A DNA stretch of 21,346 nt. Origin: a virus. Within the stretch, counting starts at the first letter, position 1; every line of letters begins with the position of its first letter. Below, one piece after another: positions 773-17,853 of this stretch. The translations under genes were made by a program, and so were the position numbers. The notes beneath the pieces are model-generated. The model searched no databases, was not told where the DNA came from, and saw nothing but the letters and a program-made list of their open reading frames with translations. The stretch is taken from IMG/VR virus record IMGVR_UViG_3300028175_000032, positions 1 through 21,346 of that record; one strand, 5' to 3'.

Positions 773-2040
773 AATTTCTCTGTGATATCTTCCATTTCAT
801 GGTAGTTTGTCCCCTTACTTGTTTTAGTGGGAAATAACCCGTTACTCTCGATAATCTTTTTTATTTTATTCAAAAAGTCTACTCCATCGTCTAAGTTAAA
901 GTCAAACAAAAATGAATCATAACTGTACAAAATCAACTTACTTTTGTATGATTCTAAAAAAGGAATAAGATTACTCAACATTTTCATATTGTTTTCTGTT
1001 TCCATCAACTGAATAAGATAGTTAAATAGTTTATTCCTGCTCATTTCAGATAAATTTTTTCTATATATCTTCTTACTATAAATATTAGAAGTTATAAAAT
1101 CTCCTTGTTTATACTCACTCCAAATTTTATTAATATAATCATGAACTGCACCAAAAAATGGATTTATTTGAACTACTTCTATCGGAATATGGCCATAGAG
1201 ATACTGGAAAGACCGATTTTTAGATTCTTGATAATCACATCCGTAAAATTCTCCCATATGTTCGTGAACTGAACCATCAGGAAATTTATAATTTACCACT
1301 TCTCCTATCAATCGTAAATGATATGCGTCATAATCAAACTCAACCAACATTCCATTTTCAAACCTACTTACAAATGGTTTTCTACTACCATCTGACTTAT
1401 TTAATGCTGCAAAATTGATTCCGCCGAATCTATTACTTGGTCTACCAGTTGATGTATATAAATTATATTCACTATAAACTATCTCTTTATCACATCTTAA
1501 TCCTGAAGATTCTAAATAAGTTAAATTATCAATTATATCATCATTATATTCTTTATAAACTGGTAAATCAATATGTTTCTGAAATTCATTGGATAATTTC
1601 CTACATAATTCTAAATGTTTTAATATAGGAACTATACAATTCACACCTTGTAATTTATAATATTTTCTATTAAAATAATCGTGGGAATTTGTGGATATAT
1701 CTTCAATGTATAATGGTTTATTGTGTTCCATATAATATTGAAGATTTATATCTATTACATTTTTCCAACTAACAATATGATTAAATTGTTTCCTGTCATA
1801 CACATACTTTTTGTGATCTGAATTTAACTTATCAAGATATGATATATCAAGGTTCAACGCCTCACTATGTCGAAATGGTAACAAATATTCATCACCATCC
1901 AATATTTTTACATATAATAAGCACAAAGAATTCTCAAGTGGATGTTTATTCACATCACATAAAATTGGAATTAAAATACAATCAGATTTATTGTATTTTT
2001 CTATAAAACCATCAAACTCTTTTTTTGTCTCTAATATCAT
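769..2040 (-). CDS. Compact, divergent family-A DNA polymerase
   Basis: Predicted template-directed DNA polymerase of the Pol I (family A) fold, 423 residues, compared with about 600 for a Klenow-type enzyme. The pre-palm signature T-G-R is at 198-200. Motif A is DYDAYHLR with the catalytic Asp at D236. A VHEHMGEFYG segment matches the usual H-x3-A-x3-FG region. Motif B keeps K274, F278, Y282 and G283. An N340-x3-Q344 pair matches the N/Q of Pol I. Motif C is YSYDSFLFD with D375. Oddities: the motif A Glu (steric gate, E710 in E. coli Pol I) is His241, the motif B Arg is Tyr270, and motif C has Ser376 instead of Glu. Only about 14 residues lie between the E177...D184 segment and TGR, where a thumb domain is expected. 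The N-terminal 150 residues vaguely resemble a 3'-5' exonuclease fold without its acidic residues (inference). The start overlaps the glycosyltransferase by 29 bases. Very Asn/Tyr/Lys-rich. It may or may not be the phage replicase. Confidence 0.82.
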   Translation of the reverse strand: MILETKKEFDGFIEKYNKSDCILIPILCDVNKHPLENSLCLLYVKILDGDEYLLPFRHSEALNLDISYLDKLNSDHKKYVYDRKQFNHIVSWKNVIDINLQYYMEHNKPLYIEDISTNSHDYFNRKYYKLQGVNCIVPILKHLELCRKLSNEFQKHIDLPVYKEYNDDIIDNLTYLESSGLRCDKEIVYSEYNLYTSTGRPSNRFGGINFAALNKSDGSRKPFVSRFENGMLVEFDYDAYHLRLIGEVVNYKFPDGSVHEHMGEFYGCDYQESKNRSFQYLYGHIPIEVVQINPFFGAVHDYINKIWSEYKQGDFITSNIYSKKIYRKNLSEMSRNKLFNYLIQLMETENNMKMLSNLIPFLESYKSKLILYSYDSFLFDFNLDDGVDFLNKIKKIIESNGLFPTKTSKGTNYHEMEDITEKL

Positions 2041-2968
2041 CTATAATCTTATCTATCGCACTAAAAACCATTGGTGGGTCTATTTCTTTTGAGCACTCAA
2101 ACTCTCTTTCAGTTCCTTTATAGTCTGGACACACATTCCAATCTCCTTTAAGATTTAATGTTTCATCCCTATGCCAACAACCATTACAAACTTCACTATT
2201 ATGAACGTGGATACATTTATGTTGAAACTCAAACCAAGGTTCAGTCATACCATGTATCATAATAACCCATTTATTTACTGCCCATGCTAACCAAGATAAT
2301 CCACTACCCAAACCAATAAAAAACTCACAATGAATTAATTCACTAATTCGTTCATCTAAAGATTTACCTTGACTTTTTATTACACCTTTCGGAAGTTTAT
2401 TCGTATAACCATCTTTACTCTGGTCTTCATTTAAATCAATATCTAAAACCTTATATCCCTTATGATTTAAATATCTTACAACATAATCCCAACCTTTAGG
2501 ATAATTCCAATACTTTAATTGTGGACCATTTGAATGTACTCCAATACAAACATATTTTTCTTTCATTGGTCTACCATAGTTCTTAAAATGTAAGTTAGGT
2601 TTCTTTTCTTTAAATGATAATCCTAAAGTATCTGTTGCTGATTGTTGTAATGGAATATATTGTCTACCATCCCAACTACATCCTATCTTATAACTAATGA
2701 TTCCATCTGCACTCATTGGTAATTTAAAACACAATCCATCTTTATCAAAGTGTTGGATATATTTTTCCTCTAATAAAAATTCTATATCAGGATAATTTGG
2801 TTTCAACAATGGAATCATTTCTTGTCGTGGTAGAAAAACCTTAACATTACATTTATTTTCTACTCTAAATTGTTCCACATATGGAAACCAAGCTAAAGTA
2901 TCTCCGAGTCCCTTAGATTGAAATATGATATAAACACTTTTACCCCGAATTGGATGGAATGTTTTCAT
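2012..2968 (-). CDS. GT9-like glycosyltransferase of the autotransporter heptosyltransferase (Aah/TibC) type
   Basis: Predicted glycosyltransferase of GT-B fold. The N-terminal segment KGLGDTLAWFPYVE (19-32) has the G-x-GD motif of GT9/heptosyltransferases. The later segment ELIHCEFFIGLGSGLSWLAWA is the usual sugar-nucleotide pocket with its Gly/Ser loop. The strongest sign is a C-terminal cysteine finger, C261-x2-C264-x15-C280-x11-C292, with CNGCW, WNVCP and REFEC contexts. This is the hallmark of bacterial autotransporter heptosyltransferases (TibC, Aah), which bind iron there and glycosylate Ser residues on surface proteins. Length (318) is somewhat short for that family. It overlaps the RimK-like gene by 29 bases upstream and the polymerase by 29 bases downstream. 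The sugar donor and target cannot be read from sequence: a phage tail protein, a host surface protein or a host glycan are all possible. No signal peptide; probably cytoplasmic. Confidence 0.83.
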   Translation of the reverse strand: MKTFHPIRGKSVYIIFQSKGLGDTLAWFPYVEQFRVENKCNVKVFLPRQEMIPLLKPNYPDIEFLLEEKYIQHFDKDGLCFKLPMSADGIISYKIGCSWDGRQYIPLQQSATDTLGLSFKEKKPNLHFKNYGRPMKEKYVCIGVHSNGPQLKYWNYPKGWDYVVRYLNHKGYKVLDIDLNEDQSKDGYTNKLPKGVIKSQGKSLDERISELIHCEFFIGLGSGLSWLAWAVNKWVIMIHGMTEPWFEFQHKCIHVHNSEVCNGCWHRDETLNLKGDWNVCPDYKGTEREFECSKEIDPPMVFSAIDKIIDDIRDKKRV

Positions 2969-3857
2969 TATAACCTATCTTATGTTTTACATATGTAACT
3001 ATTTGTTCTGCAACATTTGTTTTGGTAAATTTATCCATTCCTTCAAAACCAGGAGATGAGTTGACCTCACATATACTATAACCATCACCATCAAATAACA
3101 AATCAACTCCTGCTATATCCAAATTAAGTAGTCTTGCAGATTCACCACCTAACCATTCTATATCAGCATCAATTTGATATGGAATACCTTCACCACCTCT
3201 TGTGATATTTGCTCTGAAATCATCATCTATTGATTGTCTCATCATACAACCAACTACTTTACTATTGACTACCAATACCCTTAAATCTTTACCATAACTA
3301 TCTTTAATAAACTCTTGAACAATAATATTATAACTTGGTTTAGTTATCTCTGCCATCTTTAATAGTTGTTTTAATTGTGTTCTGTTTTCACATAAGAATA
3401 CACCTGCTCCAAATGAACCACTTAGTGTTTTTATAATTGCTGGATATCCAATATTTTTTTCTACAAAATCTATATCAATGGGATATTTAACTAATAATGT
3501 TTTTGGTACTGGTAAACTTGATTGTCCTAAAACTTGTTGTGTATATAACTTATCCTTAACATTATCTATAGCATCACTACCATTAATAAGTATCACTCCC
3601 AACCTCTCTAAATGACGAATAATAGCTTTGATAAAATATGTTGTTCCACTACCTGTTCGTGGTATGACAAAATCTGGTAATGGTCTTGATTTACCACCAA
3701 TCAAAATACTTTTCCTATCATCTCTATCTACAAAAATATCTACATCTTGTGGATTTACCACGCGAACTTTAAGTCCTTGTTTCTCAAATTCTTCTACAAG
3801 TTTTTGAGTTTCATAAGATTCTTCTATTTTATTTTTATATAATATCCAACCGTTCAT
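2940..3857 (-). CDS. RimK-like ATP-grasp ligase
   Basis: ATP-grasp ligase of the RimK/LysX/GshB-like group, 305 residues. RimK adds glutamates to the C-terminus of ribosomal protein S6; related enzymes ligate amino acids onto carrier proteins or small peptides. Numbered from the chosen start: PAIIKTLSGSFGAGV (139-153) is the ATP-binding Lys and glycine-rich loop; VQEFI (180-184) is the hinge; DLRVLVV (191-197) and the R/N/GG segment FRANITRGGEG (214-224) are typical of RimK; D252 and the metal-binding E264/N266 lie in GVDLL...EVNSSPGFEG. I chose ATG at 3857, not 3878. It forms an ATGA overlap with the thyX stop, and GGAAG lies about 11 bases upstream. The longer start adds seven residues (MGRSILE) and a longer overlap. 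The substrate is unknown. Confidence 0.88.
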   Translation of the reverse strand: MNGWILYKNKIEESYETQKLVEEFEKQGLKVRVVNPQDVDIFVDRDDRKSILIGGKSRPLPDFVIPRTGSGTTYFIKAIIRHLERLGVILINGSDAIDNVKDKLYTQQVLGQSSLPVPKTLLVKYPIDIDFVEKNIGYPAIIKTLSGSFGAGVFLCENRTQLKQLLKMAEITKPSYNIIVQEFIKDSYGKDLRVLVVNSKVVGCMMRQSIDDDFRANITRGGEGIPYQIDADIEWLGGESARLLNLDIAGVDLLFDGDGYSICEVNSSPGFEGMDKFTKTNVAEQIVTYVKHKIGYNENIPSNSG

Positions 3858-4546
3858 TTCCAATATACTTCTTCCCATAATTTAGTGGTTTCTGGATAGA
3901 CTTCTAACATTATTTTCTTTAATGTTCTTGCGTAGTCTTGTATCTCTACTTGAGCTGTTGGTTCATCTCGTAGTTCAATGAAGTTCATAATAGACTGAAA
4001 TGATGCAGTCCACCATACTTTTGTATATTGACTTAATGGTAAAATGACTCTTGCTTGTTCTTTAGCAACACCTCTACGTAACAAACCATCATAGAATATT
4101 TTGGCGTGTTCTATTGAATCATTCCAAGTTCTCAAACATTCTTCTTGTAGTTCAACCTCACCTTCAGATGCTTGTTTATTGTCATCTGATTGAGCTCTAA
4201 ATACTTCGGGGACATAATATTCTTCCACTTCCACATAACGACCACTAATCTCGTTCCACGCATGGTCTTTGGTAGGATGACTTGATGTAGTTTCAATTCC
4301 AACAACGTGTTTATACCATTGTCGCATAACGAACTCTGGTGCCTTGATAATCATCATCACGTGTTGGTGTCTGAATGGACTGAAATGTTTATGTTTGATT
4401 AAGAACTTGGATAGTTTCCTATCTTTCTCTGTAAATTCATCACTACGACCACCGAATGATACTCTGGCAGCATTAACTGGGGTTAGGTCATCACCGAGAG
4501 AATCTACAACCTCAATATAACCTTTGTCTAATACATCGATTTTCAT
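3854..4546 (-). CDS. thyX: Flavin-dependent thymidylate synthase, variant signature
   Basis: ThyX makes dTMP from dUMP using FAD, NADPH and methylene-tetrahydrofolate, supplying thymidine for phage DNA. At 230 residues it has the family's usual size. Family features seen: NAARVSF near 25-31, HFSPFRH (54-60), RQW (75-77), NEISGRY (98-104), and the C-terminal ARVILPLSQYTKVWW...RDEPTAQVEIQDYA block. The canonical RHR-x7-S signature is altered: RHR is replaced by K79-H80-V81, and about a dozen extra residues separate it from NEISGRY. I believe similar 'QWYKH' variants occur in other marine phages and cyanobacteria, but I could not check. The start is preceded by AAAGG 7 bases upstream. First gene of the enzyme cluster, after an 86-base gap; RimK-like starts within its stop codon. 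Confidence 0.92.
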   Translation of the reverse strand: MKIDVLDKGYIEVVDSLGDDLTPVNAARVSFGGRSDEFTEKDRKLSKFLIKHKHFSPFRHQHVMMIIKAPEFVMRQWYKHVVGIETTSSHPTKDHAWNEISGRYVEVEEYYVPEVFRAQSDDNKQASEGEVELQEECLRTWNDSIEHAKIFYDGLLRRGVAKEQARVILPLSQYTKVWWTASFQSIMNFIELRDEPTAQVEIQDYARTLKKIMLEVYPETTKLWEEVYWK

Positions 4547-12996: not shown

Positions 12997-15723
12997 TTAT
13001 CTATTTGCGAACGCACCTTCTATTGATGATATTGTTTTTTTAACATTTGTTTGTGTTGAATCAAACGTTGGTTGTTTCTCTAACAATGTAATTACTTTAT
13101 CTAATTTATCTGAAGTTCTCTTATCTGTAACAGTTACTTCTCGTCTAATTTTGTCTGCATCACTAACTAATTGTATTTTAGTAACTCCACCCTTGAACCA
13201 TGAACCTACCTCATTATCTATAGATAAATCTGAAAATGCTTCCATTGAATCTGTTAATAATCTCATTGCCTGTGCCGTTGTCGTCAATCCAGGTCCTAAA
13301 GCGGCAAATCTTTGAAATTTCTTAACTGGTTCACCACCAAAAAAGTTTCCAATAGAAGATAGAATTCCACCTACTGCACTACCAGCACCAAATCCGGCTA
13401 ATGCTGCGCCAATGGCCACTATTCCAGCTGCCGCTGATACTAATCCACCTTCTCTTCCTATTTGAGCAAATTTCTCAAAAGTAGTATAAATTGAAGTAAA
13501 AACTCCAGTAATTAATCCACTGATAGCCTCAATTATTCCTATGACTAAATCTTTATATATTGTGAACGCATCTATAAGAACTCCACCAACTACTGATGCT
13601 AAATTAACAACATGAGGAGCAAGTTGAACTATCAGACCTATGAGTTCTCGTAAAACATCCAAAACAAAACCACCAACTACTTCAAAAAATATTCTAAATC
13701 CTTTTTCTCCATATTCTATTGCCTTTGACAATGCATATATTCCAAGAGCAAATCCAGCCATAGCCAAAACCAATATACCAATACCTACTGCAATGACTGG
13801 GGCTCCTGTTCCCAGTGCAGTTAATCCCGCAGCTAAACTAACAAGTGCACCACCGGCTGCAGCACCACCCGCTCCCATAAGAGCGAAAAGAGGTGGGATT
13901 ATTACAATTGCTGCGTAAATTAATCCTATTGTAACTAACCATCCTTTCCATTTTTCCCAAATTGCTGCGATAGATTTCTTCCAATCCTCCCAATCTTCTT
14001 TAAGATTCGCAACTATTCCTTCACCTTTCGATAATTCTGAAATCCATCCTATAAACTTCATACCAATATCTTCTACAAATTGGAAAACTGGTCTTAAATA
14101 TCCTGCGAATTTTGCTATTGCCTTTTCAGTCATTTCAAATGTACCAGTCATCGAACCAGAAACTCCTAATATATCCAAAAGTTTTTGACCGAGTGGAGTA
14201 ATAAACTCTTGATATAATGTCTGAAAAACACCAACAATCGACTGCCATATTTTTTGTATATTATTAGTAACTTGTTCATTTTTCTTCTTTTTTGCTAAAT
14301 CTTCAGCACTCATAGTCATAAGTTTTTCTTCTGCGGCTACCATTTTACTTAAATCTGTAAGAGTTAGTCCGGCGGCTTCTGCTAATGCTTCTCGTTGAAC
14401 TAGATTCATCGCCAAAAAATCAGCTTCTGAACCAACTTGTCTCATAATCTCTTTTTGCATTCCTTCTAAATCACCAGCAAATGCTAATTCTCTAGCCCGT
14501 TCCATATTAACACTTCGTCCTAATAATACACTAGCTTCCATTTCAGCATTTATTGATGATTCAAAATCTAATAATTTATCTGCGGCCCCACTAATAGTAG
14601 TCATACTCATACCTAATTTCTTTGCAAATGCGGCTGCTTTTATAATATTTTTTCCACCTTCTTTCATATGTCCTGCAAAAAAGTCCGTATCACTTGCAAC
14701 TTCTTCCATAATTTTACCAACTGGAACACCTGACTTCTGCATTTTTTTCATTTCCTTACCCATATCTTGTAATAAAACATCTTTGGTTGAACTTGATGTT
14801 GATTCCATCATTTGAGCAAGTTGTGCTGCAGATGTAGTTGATACACCATACATTCTTTCTAAATCATTTGCAGCTGTAATAGAATTTTTGGTTTCTTCAT
14901 TTATAACTCCCCATTCTTCTACAAGTGTGGATGCCCTAGCCTGTACATCTTCTAAATTTTCACCGTACATAAATCCACCAGCGGCTGCTTCTCTTGTGGC
15001 CAATTCTAAATCCATTGCAAATCCTGCACCAACGCCAAGTTCTTTTTGCATTGCTACTGCACCTTTAACAATTCCCATCAAATGTTTACCTACTGCCATA
15101 ACTCCAACCGCAAGTAATCCTATTACTGATTTAATAGGATTTGCCTTAACAACACTCCAAGCATCACCTATTTTTTCCTTAATACTATCCCATCCTCTTT
15201 CAAACATATTAAGTTTATCTGTTAGTTCGGTTGCCAAATCACCCCTTTCAACATAAGCATCATTCGTATCTTCTATAGTATCTAACATATTTAATGACGA
15301 ATTTACTTGGTCTGATAACAACGCATGTAATTGTGGTTGAATACCTTTAAGTTTATTTATTTCGGTATTTAACATTTGTTGCAAATCAACTCTTTGTTGT
15401 TGGACTTCCTGAGATTTCAGTTCACCACTTAATGCCTTCTGAAACATACCCATTTGATTCGATTGTAATCCTGCGAGATTTTGTCGAGTTTTTCCTTCTG
15501 ATGCAGCATTCATCGCCCATTGTTTAGATAAATCTGAATATACCCCACCCTTATTTATAATATTTTGCTGATGTTTACCGAAACCTCGTAGTTCTTTAAG
15601 AGTATCACGAAGTCCATCAAGTGTCTTTGCTTGTTGCGCAGTTAATTCTCCCTCTAACTTTCGCAGTTCCTTTAAAGCTGCTATTCTTTCTTTAGTTAAT
15701 TTAATTGCGTCTTTATCTGCCAT
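12997..15723 (-). CDS. Tail tape measure protein
   Basis: 908 residues. Tape measures set tail length, fill the tube lumen and leave first at infection. Evidence: the N-terminal 170 residues are highly helical and Lys/Gln/Leu-rich (ERIAALKELRKLEGELTAQQ...). Hydrophobic segments appear at about 195-225 (KSVIGLLAVGVMAVGKHLMG), 590-690 (LVTIGLIYAAIVIIPPLFALMG and an Ala/Gly-rich run), 680-740 and 765-800. The middle holds long amphipathic helices (MEEVASDTDFFAGHMKEGG...). The C-terminus returns to helix. This mix of coiled coil and membrane-like segments, and the slot between tube/assembly genes and the tube initiator, is typical. It is longer than T4 gp29 (about 590), implying a longer tail if the usual proportion holds. 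The start at 15723 has only a weak SD (GGAT), 12 bases after the small upstream gene. Confidence 0.9.
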   Translation of the reverse strand: MADKDAIKLTKERIAALKELRKLEGELTAQQAKTLDGLRDTLKELRGFGKHQQNIINKGGVYSDLSKQWAMNAASEGKTRQNLAGLQSNQMGMFQKALSGELKSQEVQQQRVDLQQMLNTEINKLKGIQPQLHALLSDQVNSSLNMLDTIEDTNDAYVERGDLATELTDKLNMFERGWDSIKEKIGDAWSVVKANPIKSVIGLLAVGVMAVGKHLMGIVKGAVAMQKELGVGAGFAMDLELATREAAAGGFMYGENLEDVQARASTLVEEWGVINEETKNSITAANDLERMYGVSTTSAAQLAQMMESTSSSTKDVLLQDMGKEMKKMQKSGVPVGKIMEEVASDTDFFAGHMKEGGKNIIKAAAFAKKLGMSMTTISGAADKLLDFESSINAEMEASVLLGRSVNMERARELAFAGDLEGMQKEIMRQVGSEADFLAMNLVQREALAEAAGLTLTDLSKMVAAEEKLMTMSAEDLAKKKKNEQVTNNIQKIWQSIVGVFQTLYQEFITPLGQKLLDILGVSGSMTGTFEMTEKAIAKFAGYLRPVFQFVEDIGMKFIGWISELSKGEGIVANLKEDWEDWKKSIAAIWEKWKGWLVTIGLIYAAIVIIPPLFALMGAGGAAAGGALVSLAAGLTALGTGAPVIAVGIGILVLAMAGFALGIYALSKAIEYGEKGFRIFFEVVGGFVLDVLRELIGLIVQLAPHVVNLASVVGGVLIDAFTIYKDLVIGIIEAISGLITGVFTSIYTTFEKFAQIGREGGLVSAAAGIVAIGAALAGFGAGSAVGGILSSIGNFFGGEPVKKFQRFAALGPGLTTTAQAMRLLTDSMEAFSDLSIDNEVGSWFKGGVTKIQLVSDADKIRREVTVTDKRTSDKLDKVITLLEKQPTFDSTQTNVKKTISSIEGAFANR

Positions 15724-15735
15724 GACTTATCCAAT

Positions 15736-15981
15736 TTATCCGATGGAGAAAAATTTTTCGAGTGGTGTTCCTTTATATCGTTTAGTTATTTGCTTTGATA
15801 TTTTATTAGTATCTTTTCCTAATTTTTCCAAATCCTTTTCAATAGCATCAAACTTCTTTTTTAATTCTGGATCCTTATCTACCATTGACTTAACTGCTTT
15901 CGGAACTCTTTTCCCACTTGCAATCTTAGCCATCAATTTAGAAAGAATAGATTCACGCAATTCATTTTGTGATTTTTTCAT
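15736..15981 (-). CDS. Small charged helical protein before the tape measure
   Basis: 81 residues, Lys/Glu-rich and predicted mostly helical (KFDAIEKDLEKLGKDTNKISKQITKRYKG in its second half), with no membrane segment. The start is supported by GGAG about 7 bases upstream (GGAGTATTTTTATG). It lies between the assembly-protein extension and the tape measure, 12 bases before the latter, a slot often used by tail chaperones or small virion proteins. I do not recognise a family. The gene is convincing from spacing, SD and codon use. Confidence 0.75.
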   Translation of the reverse strand: MKKSQNELRESILSKLMAKIASGKRVPKAVKSMVDKDPELKKKFDAIEKDLEKLGKDTNKISKQITKRYKGTPLEKFFSIG

Positions 15982-16057: not shown

Positions 16058-16285
16058 TTATTTTTTGACCGATGGGGGACGAGAAATTCCTTTGGAAGAT
16101 TTCCCGGAAGCTTTATCGTAAGCTTCTTTTTCTTCTTGATATGATTTTTCTAATTGTTTTAAATAGAACCTACGAAAAAATGTAGGCATAGTATAGACTT
16201 CGGAATGAGTAAACCCACCCTTTCCGTGAAAACAGAGCTGAAATATTTCGGTGTGTATTAGAGGTCTATCTTTTGGCTGAAGGCC
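16058..16285 (-). CDS. Frameshift-encoded C-terminal extension of the gp26-like protein
   Basis: 75 codons in the +1 frame relative to the upstream gene, open from a TGA at 16301-16303 to a TAA at 16058. It has no start codon until an ATG at 16189 that lacks an SD. Its product (GLQPKDRPLIHTEIFQLCFHG..., then GKGGFTHSEVYTMPTFFRRF, then a charged helix and basic tail) is clearly protein-like, and the reading begins exactly at the U7 run of the upstream gene. Slipping +1 there would join 253 residues of the gp26-like protein to these 75 (about 328 in total). Tail genes between tube and tape measure in many phages use such a frameshift (lambda G/GT, P2 E/E'). A one-base homopolymer error could mimic this. 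I infer a chaperone or assembly role from position only. Confidence 0.7.
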   Translation of the reverse strand, partial: GLQPKDRPLIHTEIFQLCFHGKGGFTHSEVYTMPTFFRRFYLKQLEKSYQEEKEAYDKASGKSSKGISRPPSVKK

Positions 16286-17045
16286 AAAAAAACTGGACGG
16301 TCATTGGGACCGTCACCTCCTGATCGAAATCACATAACTCACAAGTAAATAGATAATTCATATCTACATCTGGAGTGATTTCTAATAAATGATTTCTAAA
16401 TGCTAAAGAATCTCGTGATAAAAATTCATTGTCTACAAAACTATTAACATAAGCAGTATCAGATTTACCATCAACAGATACTATTGCTCTTTTTAATCGT
16501 GTTGTTATTTCAGGATCTACATTACTTCCACCTGAAATCTTTTTTAAAGCTTTAAGTTCTGCATCAATTTCACGTTCATCGCTTTGAGTGAGTAATTTGT
16601 AAGTAATCTTTCGTTTAGACGTAGGAAGTTCAAAATCGAATTCATTTTTTCCACCTTTAAGATGTGAATGATCAATAGATTTTTCTCCTAACTTTGTCAA
16701 ATCAACATTATCAGTATTTCTTTCACCACAGGCAGGACAATTAAGTTCAAACTGATAATCCTTTCCATATCCTAATACTCTTGATGCTACCATTAATGCA
16801 TTTTTATCACCAATAAGAATATCATCTAAATTAATAGATTCATCTACTACTAATGATTCTAACAGTTTATCAATTACTATTCCTTTCCGAATCAGATTTT
16901 GTGATGTTAAAATATCTTCCTCTTTTGCTGTCATATACTTTACCTCAATTTCTCCTTTTGATATGGAAGATTCTTTTGGATAAAGTACTCCTTTAGAAGG
17001 CAAGTTTACCATCTCTGTTGGAAATTGGCGTTTTTCTTCTGCCAT
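16266..17045 (-). CDS. T4 gp26-like baseplate/assembly protein with zinc ribbon
   Basis: 259 residues in the zero frame. Resembles the T4 gp26 (T4 baseplate, PF12322) family: an N-terminal LPSKGVLYP motif (15-23), MTAKEEDIL (38-46), KGIVIDKLLESLVVD, then GDKNALMVASRVLGYGKDY (79-97). Two cysteine pairs, C103-x2-C106 and C235-x2-C238, should form one split zinc ribbon. T4 gp26 is about 210 residues. It probably acts in baseplate hub assembly. The start has AAAGGAG well placed before the ATG. Its last codons form the candidate frameshift site: the normal stop gives ...FFWPSAKR, the shifted product carries 75 extra residues. Lying between the tube and tape measure genes, it occupies the position of the frameshifted tail-assembly chaperones of other phages. 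Confidence 0.8.
   Translation of the reverse strand: MAEEKRQFPTEMVNLPSKGVLYPKESSISKGEIEVKYMTAKEEDILTSQNLIRKGIVIDKLLESLVVDESINLDDILIGDKNALMVASRVLGYGKDYQFELNCPACGERNTDNVDLTKLGEKSIDHSHLKGGKNEFDFELPTSKRKITYKLLTQSDEREIDAELKALKKISGGSNVDPEITTRLKRAIVSVDGKSDTAYVNSFVDNEFLSRDSLAFRNHLLEITPDVDMNYLFTCELCDFDQEVTVPMTVQFFWPSAKR
16286..16321 (-). promoter_or_regulatory. Candidate recoding signal: SD-like sequence, hairpin and U7
   Basis: On the coding strand, in order: AGGAGGTGA (16321-16313), a perfect anti-SD match; a perfect 7-bp stem GACGGTC/GACCGTC (16314-16308 and 16302-16296) with a 5-base loop; a CAG spacer; and seven T (16292-16286). In the zero frame the run reads TTT TTT TGG, so a +1 slip gives TTT TTT then GGC. 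A second hairpin, TTTTGGC/GCCAAAA (16289-16271), starts inside the T run. The short stretch is strikingly GC-rich for this gene. It could drive +1 ribosomal frameshifting or transcriptional slippage, or act as an internal terminator. Confidence 0.6.
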
Positions 17046-17139: not shown

Positions 17140-17352
17140 TTATTTAGGTGATGCAAATTTCTCCGCTGCTGTTACACCCAATCCAACTACTGTAATGTAC
17201 ATAAAACATTCTAATATTTTATCCTTTACCTCAAATGCAGAAAAGGTGTCAGCACCCCAACAACAAATCAACATAAAGAAAGCAGCAAAACCAACAGTTC
17301 TCTTTGATGATATTTTAGCATCACTTGATAGCATTTCTGTTAAAAAACTCAT
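17140..17352 (-). CDS. Small two-helix membrane protein, holin candidate
   Basis: 70 residues with two hydrophobic segments (about 19-36 and 47-63), separated by a short acidic loop and followed by a charged tail (AAEKFASPK). The N-terminal SSDAKISSKR leads into the first helix, a layout I associate with small phage holins. Holins open the inner membrane so that lysis can proceed. No endolysin is visible in the window, and the gene sits inside the tail block, 9 bases after the tail tube gene, so a virion or membrane role other than lysis remains possible. The start is supported by AAGGAG about 5 bases before ATG. A hairpin follows the stop. Confidence 0.75.
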   Translation of the reverse strand: MSFLTEMLSSDAKISSKRTVGFAAFFMLICCWGADTFSAFEVKDKILECFMYITVVGLGVTAAEKFASPK

Positions 17353-17361
17353 ATTTTCTCC

Positions 17362-17853
17362 TTAGAATTGTAGGATAGCGTAATCGTATCTTAGTGTCAA
17401 AGTTACATCAACTGGATCAGTTGCGTTTGACCAATCTAAATCACCAAATGTTGCGTTGGTAATCCATGTACCTTTTAATGTCCATTCCTCAACTTTATCA
17501 CCTACTGGACCTAACACATTAATTGTTACATCTTTCTTATAAAAATCCGAATATCCATCACGACCTGTTACTGATTCATGACCTAACCTTACCCATTCCA
17601 TTACTGCTTGTGCTCCACTTGGAACAACGGGGTCATATAGAGTTATTTCTAATTCTTCCCAAGAACCCTTACCTTTAACATATCGTTTAACATTGATATG
17701 GTCAAGTTCAATAGTTTCAAAAGCTATTGTAGGTCTATTAGCTGTTTTAATAAGATAAGCTGGTATTCCCTCAATATACATGATGTACCGATTTTTCGTT
17801 TTCGGTTCAAACGGTGTGAACATTATTTCAGAAGGATCTAATAGTTCTGGCAT
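17362..17853 (-). CDS. Tail tube protein (gp19-like)
   Basis: 163 residues, the length of T4 gp19 (163). The tube polymerises inside the sheath and forms the DNA channel. Typical features are the N-terminal FTPFEPKTKNRYIMYIEGIPAYLIKTANRP segment, ELDHINVKRYVKGKGSWEELEITLYDP in the middle, VMEWVRLGHESVTGRDGYSDFYKKD (about 84-108) and the C-terminal LKGTWITNATFGDLDWSNATDPVDVTLTLRYDYAILQ, all characteristic of T4-type tubes. Start: TTGGAGATTAAAGATG. It follows the sheath gene after a terminator and a 178-base gap, so it probably has its own promoter, allowing tube and sheath to be tuned separately. Confidence is high. Confidence 0.95.
   Translation of the reverse strand: MPELLDPSEIMFTPFEPKTKNRYIMYIEGIPAYLIKTANRPTIAFETIELDHINVKRYVKGKGSWEELEITLYDPVVPSGAQAVMEWVRLGHESVTGRDGYSDFYKKDVTINVLGPVGDKVEEWTLKGTWITNATFGDLDWSNATDPVDVTLTLRYDYAILQF

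Follow-up and report, generated by a model that had tools for sequence, protein, structure and literature searches.

Reading frames and tail-module genes at the locus

The window, that is, the whole stretch of DNA analyzed, comprises positions 1-21,346 of the IMG/VR record IMGVR_UViG_3300028175_000032 (21,346 nt), and all features of the locus lie on its minus strand (Table 1). The 3' end of the gp26-like gene reads ...ATG ACC GTC CAG TTT TTT TGG CCT TCA GCC AAA AGA TAG on that strand. A first-pass annotation had described a 259-residue gene that ends at a U7 run; the length was correct, but the run is not the end, since it precedes the TAG (16268-16266) by six codons. Beyond the run, the +1 frame has 75 open codons, the number given in that annotation, beginning with GGC at 16285, and it lacks a start of its own: no ATG, GTG or TTG was found between the upstream stop (16303-16301) and the mid-domain ATG of YTMP. 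Joining 253 residues of the gp26-like protein to these 75 gives a predicted +1 product of 328 aa, as proposed, with the T-like domain as the predicted C-terminal part of a TAC-NC fusion (TAC, tail-assembly chaperone). TTT TTT T stands in phase only once among the window's 6560 codons. For the window's other 14 genes, alternative frames at the gene end were open for 0-34 codons with one exception, which hit the 150-codon limit of the scan and is probably the overlapping next gene.

Table 1. Coordinates of features in the window
Feature	Positions	Strand	Details
gp26-like gene (TAC-N, lambda gpG analogue)	16266-17045	-	259 aa; C-terminus ...VQFFWPSAKR, then stop
T-like domain, +1 frame	16061-16285	-	75 aa, GLQPKDRPLIHTEIFQL...YTMPTFFRRFY...; stop TAA 16060-16058
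Slip site U7	16292-16286	-	Frame 0 codons UUU UUU UGG; P-site UUU predicted to slip +1 to UUU
5' hairpin GACGGTC-CCAAT-GACCGTC	16296-16314	-	3 nt (CAG) upstream of U7; arms GACGGTC 16314-16308 and GACCGTC 16302-16296; loop 5 nt
SD-like AGGAGG	16316-16321	-	23 nt upstream of slip site; about 4 nt with the hairpin left out
String AGGAGGTGA	16321-16313	-	Contains the SD-like region
81-aa ORF between T domain and probable tape measure gene	15736-15981	-	Weak similarity in four relatives
Probable tape measure gene, a downstream 908-aa ORF	12997-15723	-	Synteny with tape-measure genes annotated in immuto, LIS04 and SP-15
70-aa ORF just upstream of gp26-like gene	17140-17352	-	Probable membrane (holin-like) protein; same place in 15 relatives
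Tail tube gp19-like, upstream neighbor	17362-17853	-	PF06841 1.7e-7; phrog_4542 1.1e-26
Heptosyltransferase-like GT9, RimK-like ATP-grasp and ThyX genes together	2012-4546	-	Downstream of the tail module

The 259-aa protein matched PF12322 (T4_baseplate, the T4 gp26 family) from residue 29 to 254 and up to the profile end (E = 1.8e-8, 34.8 bits vs. a gathering cut-off of 24.5), and phrog_150 'baseplate hub' (6.8e-12). Its AlphaFold model (pLDDT 90) resembles T4-like baseplate hub models in BFVD, including that of SP-15 (TM 0.85); the T domain was modeled as three helices (pLDDT 86). Foldseek against the PDB returned the HK97 gp13 TAC (2ob9) as a weak match (E 3.3 and 4.6; top probability shown 0.23), and a PDB sequence search with the G profile found no relative. 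The gene order tube - G/T - tape measure is that of lambda-type TAC genes, with the tube identified by profile and the tape measure by synteny; Pfam and PHROG searches gave no profile match for the 908-aa ORF itself.

The 70-aa protein shares 71-94% amino acid identity (mostly 84-94%) with its counterparts in the 15 relatives. At the nucleotide level its identity (77-91%) exceeded that of the gp26-like gene (64-73%) in 15/15 and that of the tube gene in 14/15.

Conservation of the junction in the window's clade

An IMG/VR scan with the 259-aa protein returned at least 600 stretches, all relatives, and the best 80 (47-66% identity) were used. Adding the window and the two cultured viruses Flavobacterium phage immuto and Microcystis phage Mel-JY01 gives a clade set of 83 loci. 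Conservation of the out-of-frame junction in homologous genomes had been named as a check, and 82/83 loci were found to have a homologous C-terminal domain in +1 that begins at this position. The lone exception (L076) has its T domain in -1, and its site, A_AAU_UUC, is a canonical heptamer for such a shift.

The 3' end of the L076 gp26-like gene (about 2520-2550) represents a natural direction switch at the same protein position.

Codon use at the site was narrow. TTT serves as the first Phe codon in 82/83 clade loci, against a background share of 0.74 among Phe codons; the second codon of the site was TTT in 71, CTT in 10, TTA in 1 and TTC in 1 (n = 83), and the Pro codon is CCT in 78/83 (background 0.37). 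A zero-frame stop falls within 5 codons of the FFWP motif in all clade loci.

Homopolymer runs are error-prone, and the junction might on that account be a sequencing or assembly error or mark a recently broken gene. The same frame relation recurs in independently assembled loci (82/83, cultured phages included) and at sites that have no homopolymer; because it is conserved, this reading is already refuted, and its probability is practically negligible. Both outcomes that the first-pass annotation had named as contrary to a frameshift are thereby disposed of: a miscounted run of six T's is out because the cultured Flavobacterium and Microcystis phages have the same junction, and the downstream frame is retained among the homologues of the clade.

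Alternatively, the T domain could be a gene in its own right, whose translation begins by coupled re-initiation or at a non-canonical start. Such separate T genes occur in a few relatives (L087, with TAATG; L112; L117; Vibrio BX-1), truncated T ORFs are annotated in several phages, and the annotations of the cultured clade members split or truncate the domain. From the upstream stop to domain codon 14, however, 48/83 clade loci have no ATG, GTG or TTG and 68/83 have no ATG, so that a canonical start for a separate T is not possible in most of the clade. The domain homology also starts at the slip site, and the near-invariance of that site would be left without a reason. We consider a separate gene highly improbable.

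Slip site and probable direction of the shift

Tabulated junctions with the domain in +1 numbered 119, plus 12 in MAG contigs, and codon-anticodon re-pairing was checked at each of the 119 sites. Re-pairing in +1 at the first or second codon, with no middle-base mismatch, was found at 119/119. A -2 shift of the Mu type, i.e., two bases back with one extra Phe, reaches the same frame; U7 sites are compatible with it, Mu provides the precedent (PMC5009743), and covarying 3' hairpins, typical of backward shifts, occur in one subset of relatives. At 31/119 homologous sites (TTC TTT TGG, 14; CTR TTT C, 16; TTC TTT CGT, 1), however, -2 is barred by a middle-base mismatch where +1 re-pairs well, so -2 is not the general mechanism, and a 5' hairpin abutting the site would be expected to hamper backward movement. 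A -2 shift is accordingly given a low probability; of the earlier proposal, '+1 or an equivalent -2', the first part is favored and the second is impossible at those 31 sites.

The same frame would also be restored by transcriptional slippage on T7, if a share of transcripts carried six U's (or nine). Runs of T7 can slip, and the title of Vladimirov et al. was counted in favor of this route; PMC10885494 takes it to mean distinct genes for a short and a long form. The longest T run is only 3-4 at 42/119 +1 sites, so slippage on a long run is not the general mechanism either, and a selected RNA hairpin and SD-like motif would be hard to account for; we hold transcriptional slippage to be very unlikely. 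The expectation that the U run would be conserved was borne out for the slip site, which is near-invariant in the clade, but not for a long T run across all homologues.

The window's own U7 is compatible with +1, -2 and transcriptional slippage alike, and the +1 assignment in the window therefore rests on homology. Judged by sequence, +1 slippage of the P-site codon is the sole mechanism that would fit every tabulated junction, homologous sites such as TTC TTT TGG and CTG TTT CAG included.

Two simpler descriptions of the site were dropped. The U run itself (transcriptional slippage) is not the conserved feature, as sites with 3-4 T's keep the same frame relation. Nor can one fixed codon of the FF pair always be the one that slips: slippage must fall on the second codon in TTC TTT TGG and CTR TTT C, and on the first in TTT TTA TGG and TTT CTA TTC.

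A T domain in -1 always goes with a canonical heptamer (L076, Atu_ph07, PA5oct and 80 cyanophage-type loci), and an X_XXY_YYZ heptamer with a -1 T domain was found neither in the window nor in the clade apart from L076. The A-site codon is UGG in the window (UAC, CAG or CGN elsewhere) and not a stop that would account for a ribosomal pause, which counts against +1 slippage as the best explanation.

Upstream hairpin, SD-like motif and 3' hairpins

The SD-like string and the 7-bp hairpin that had been noted just upstream of U7 were both located in the sequence, and their supposed relevance was upheld in that each, as a class, is under selection by comparison with synonymous-codon shuffles. Across 50 dereplicated loci, the 33 nt upstream of the site folded at -6.41 kcal/mol vs. 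-3.61 ± 0.26 kcal/mol in the shuffles, of which 0/300 were as stable as the real segment. The overlapping segment from -48 to -15 was also more stable (0/100 shuffles), and segments ending at or before -30 had no significant excess stability relative to synonymous-codon shuffles. For 16 distinct loci of the window's register, stem covariation was 0.398 vs. 0.141 shuffled (0/500), with 94.6% of cells paired, and sliding of the arms abolished the signal. The 5' hairpin is selected beyond protein coding, and it covaries. Of 50 representatives, 56% had SD-like motifs (tetramers) at -36 to -18, compared with 26% ± 5% when codons were shuffled synonymously, and the distance of these motifs from the site, with the hairpin uncounted, was mostly 4-8 nt across loci. 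Rfam gave no match, and no tRNA genes were found.

A strong 3' hairpin takes the place of the 5' one in 17 loci, and 3' hairpins covary on their own in two sets of relatives. The energies of 5' and 3' hairpins were anticorrelated (Spearman -0.49), SD-like motifs accompany the 5' hairpin in 87% of its loci and the 3' hairpin in 12%, and the two classes switched several times on the protein tree. Phylogenetically independent pairs (5' vs. 3' hairpin and SD) pointed in the expected direction, with a median p of 0.125-0.375 from only 4-5 informative pairs. An exchange of 5' for 3' stimulator modules is suggestive only.

The SD spacing reported for +1 shifts is 3 nt, and for -1 shifts 9-14 nt (PMC5009743). 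The linear spacing of 23 nt in the window fits neither, which also counts against the best explanation. One account would be a composite +1 stimulator in which the SD stands behind a hairpin that abuts the site, and anti-SD pairing together with refolding drives the ribosome forward; in relatives the 5' module would have been exchanged for a 3' hairpin, and within the family the direction would have flipped between +1 and -1. The chances of this composite account are, in our judgment, evenly balanced.

Relatives outside the clade

The +1 arrangement was also found in Streptococcus phage GXN1, Listeria phage LIS04, Bacillus phage SP-15, Streptomyces phages LuckySocke and BRock, Rhodothermus phage RM378 and the uncultured huge phage LR756508, as well as in 16 LR756508-type and 15 BRock-type contigs and in 12/12 junction-bearing MAG contigs. 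Scans with the SP-15 and RM378 proteins returned only themselves. The -1 arrangement lies over U_UUU_UUC in Agrobacterium phage Atu_ph07 and Pseudomonas phage PA5oct, and over U_UUU_UUC or U_UUU_UUU in cyanophage S-BM1, Vibrio phage VmeM-32 and Stenotrophomonas phage BUCT608. Cyanophage-type contigs have the T domain in -1 over an invariant U_UUU_UUC in 80/80. T4 has a separate short gp26 and a longer gp51, both of which match PF12322.

The cyanophage-type gp26 genes are those of L122-L201 and L095:3154-3369, and the tiny 'gp51' annotated in S-BM1 is a fragment of the cyanophage-type T domain. Positions 1-6260 of L229, a WOR-3 MAG assembled as one chromosome, also carry a cluster of sheath, tube, G/T (+1) and tape-measure-like genes; it may be a prophage, a tail-like particle or an assembly artefact.

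Profiles of the window-clade T domain aligned by hhalign with those of the LR756508 group, the SP-15 group, jumbo phages and cyanophages at probabilities of 98.9, 94.4, 83.2 and 68.4, respectively; the BRock-type T had no direct hhalign match to the window-clade T. The cyanophage T reached the C terminus of T4 gp51 at a probability of only 47. Direct hhalign of the window-clade profiles with the single T4 gp26 or gp51 sequences found nothing, and the link to T4 gp26/gp51 runs through PF12322 and, weakly, through T-domain intermediates. Homology of the T domain to T4 gp51 would be indirect and weak.

A frameshift had been ascribed to 'this T4-like system'. The predicted shift stands, but it is no peculiarity of one phage, as the arrangement spans a very large group; likewise, the PF12322 family uses +1 in the window's clade, and other members use -1 or separate genes. 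Sequence comparison suggests that this switch is present in hundreds of related viruses and usually missed by annotation.

Proposed mechanism and significance

The conserved out-of-frame junction, the slip site and the selected RNA structure argue strongly for the programmed shift in tail-chaperone position that the first-pass annotation had put forward. A programmed +1 frameshift very probably yields short and long tail-assembly chaperones from one gp26-family gene, with the upstream SD and hairpin as stimulators. As we infer them, slippage, its efficiency and the action of the stimulators would be as follows. Most ribosomes would stay in frame through UUU UUU UGG and terminate six codons past U7, releasing the 259-aa short form. 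A minority would slip +1, the peptidyl-tRNA Phe on UUU re-pairing on UUU or UUC (in some relatives, Leu on CUU is possibly the slipping peptidyl-tRNA), and would enter the 75-codon frame to complete the 328-aa fusion of short form and T. The upstream AGGAGG and hairpin would stimulate this step: as the hairpin refolds at the trailing edge of the ribosome, it and the anti-SD pairing would likely pull the mRNA backward and so favor forward slippage. On the model of lambda gpG/gpGT, coating of the tape measure protein would fall to the short form and recruitment of the tail tube to the T domain. We infer this chaperone function from the gene position, the two-product logic and the membership of T4 gp26/gp51 in the family.

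The production of two chaperones in T4-like phages has previously been described as other than frameshifting. Many gp26-family relatives would carry a conserved recoding site, which is +1 in a large share of them and -1 in those of cyanophage type, with two genes in T4. Routine annotations as 'baseplate hub' or 'hypothetical protein' would be corrected in hundreds of viral contigs. The same FF position with different codons would also provide a natural series for testing how the direction of a shift is set.

Comparison with known systems

Many phages use a frameshift to make two tail-assembly chaperones between the tube and tape-measure genes, mostly by -1, with Mu using -2. The tail-assembly-chaperone frameshift of long-tailed phages was reportedly treated by Xu, Hendrix and Duda in 2004, and PMC5009743 reviews it. 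As in lambda gpG/gpGT, the window has one gene near the tube and tape measure, a slip site near its 3' end, an out-of-frame T and a predicted short and long product; a conserved C-terminal domain that only a shift close to the 3' end of the gene would make accessible was found throughout the clade (82/83 in +1, 1/83 in -1). Lambda shifts -1, whereas the shift proposed here is +1, on UUU/CUU, and has an SD and a hairpin on its 5' side, and the N domain of the window is PF12322 and not gpG. To our knowledge, a 5' stimulator of SD and hairpin has rarely been documented for bacterial +1 shifts.

The TACs of T4-like phages are said to be the subject of a 2022 study by Vladimirov, Gautam and Davidson. 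T4 gp26/gp51 belong to the same Pfam family, and T4 too supplies a short and a long fused form, but from two separate genes, where the window has one gene with an out-of-frame T domain. In some T4-like phages the TAC is reportedly encoded twice, by a short gene and by a longer, fused one (PMC10885494, citing Vladimirov 2022).

The +1 slippage of RF2 (prfB) at CUU_U or UUU_U and the 5' stem-loop motor model of gene 60 are reviewed in PMC5009743. The window resembles RF2 in a P-site codon that would slip to UUU (UUU_U in the window, CUU_U in 10 relatives) and in its upstream SD-like motif. It differs in having UGG and no stop in the A site, and an SD 23 nt rather than 3 nt upstream with a hairpin between, and it is not autoregulatory as far as known. 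The -2 shift of phage Mu likewise leads into +1 within a tail chaperone gene, but 31/119 sites homologous to the window's bar -2. In T4 gene 60 bypassing, a hairpin just 5' of the P-site codon is proposed to drive forward movement; the window shift would be one base with no 50-nt gap, and the motor model would apply to its hairpin by analogy only.

Frameshifting TAC genes are already well known. The TAC of Pseudomonas phage Adele (PMC12846349) is similar in its conserved T-run site and a downstream frame open across the family, and differs in its -1 direction. A +1 claim exists for one mycobacteriophage, Maravista (cluster F1), as an annotation statement only (PMC11256854); it shares +1 in a TAC gene with the window but is a phage of another kind. 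Within the literature searched, a +1 site in the gp26 family, the conserved 5' SD and hairpin, and a change of direction within one family appear to be new.
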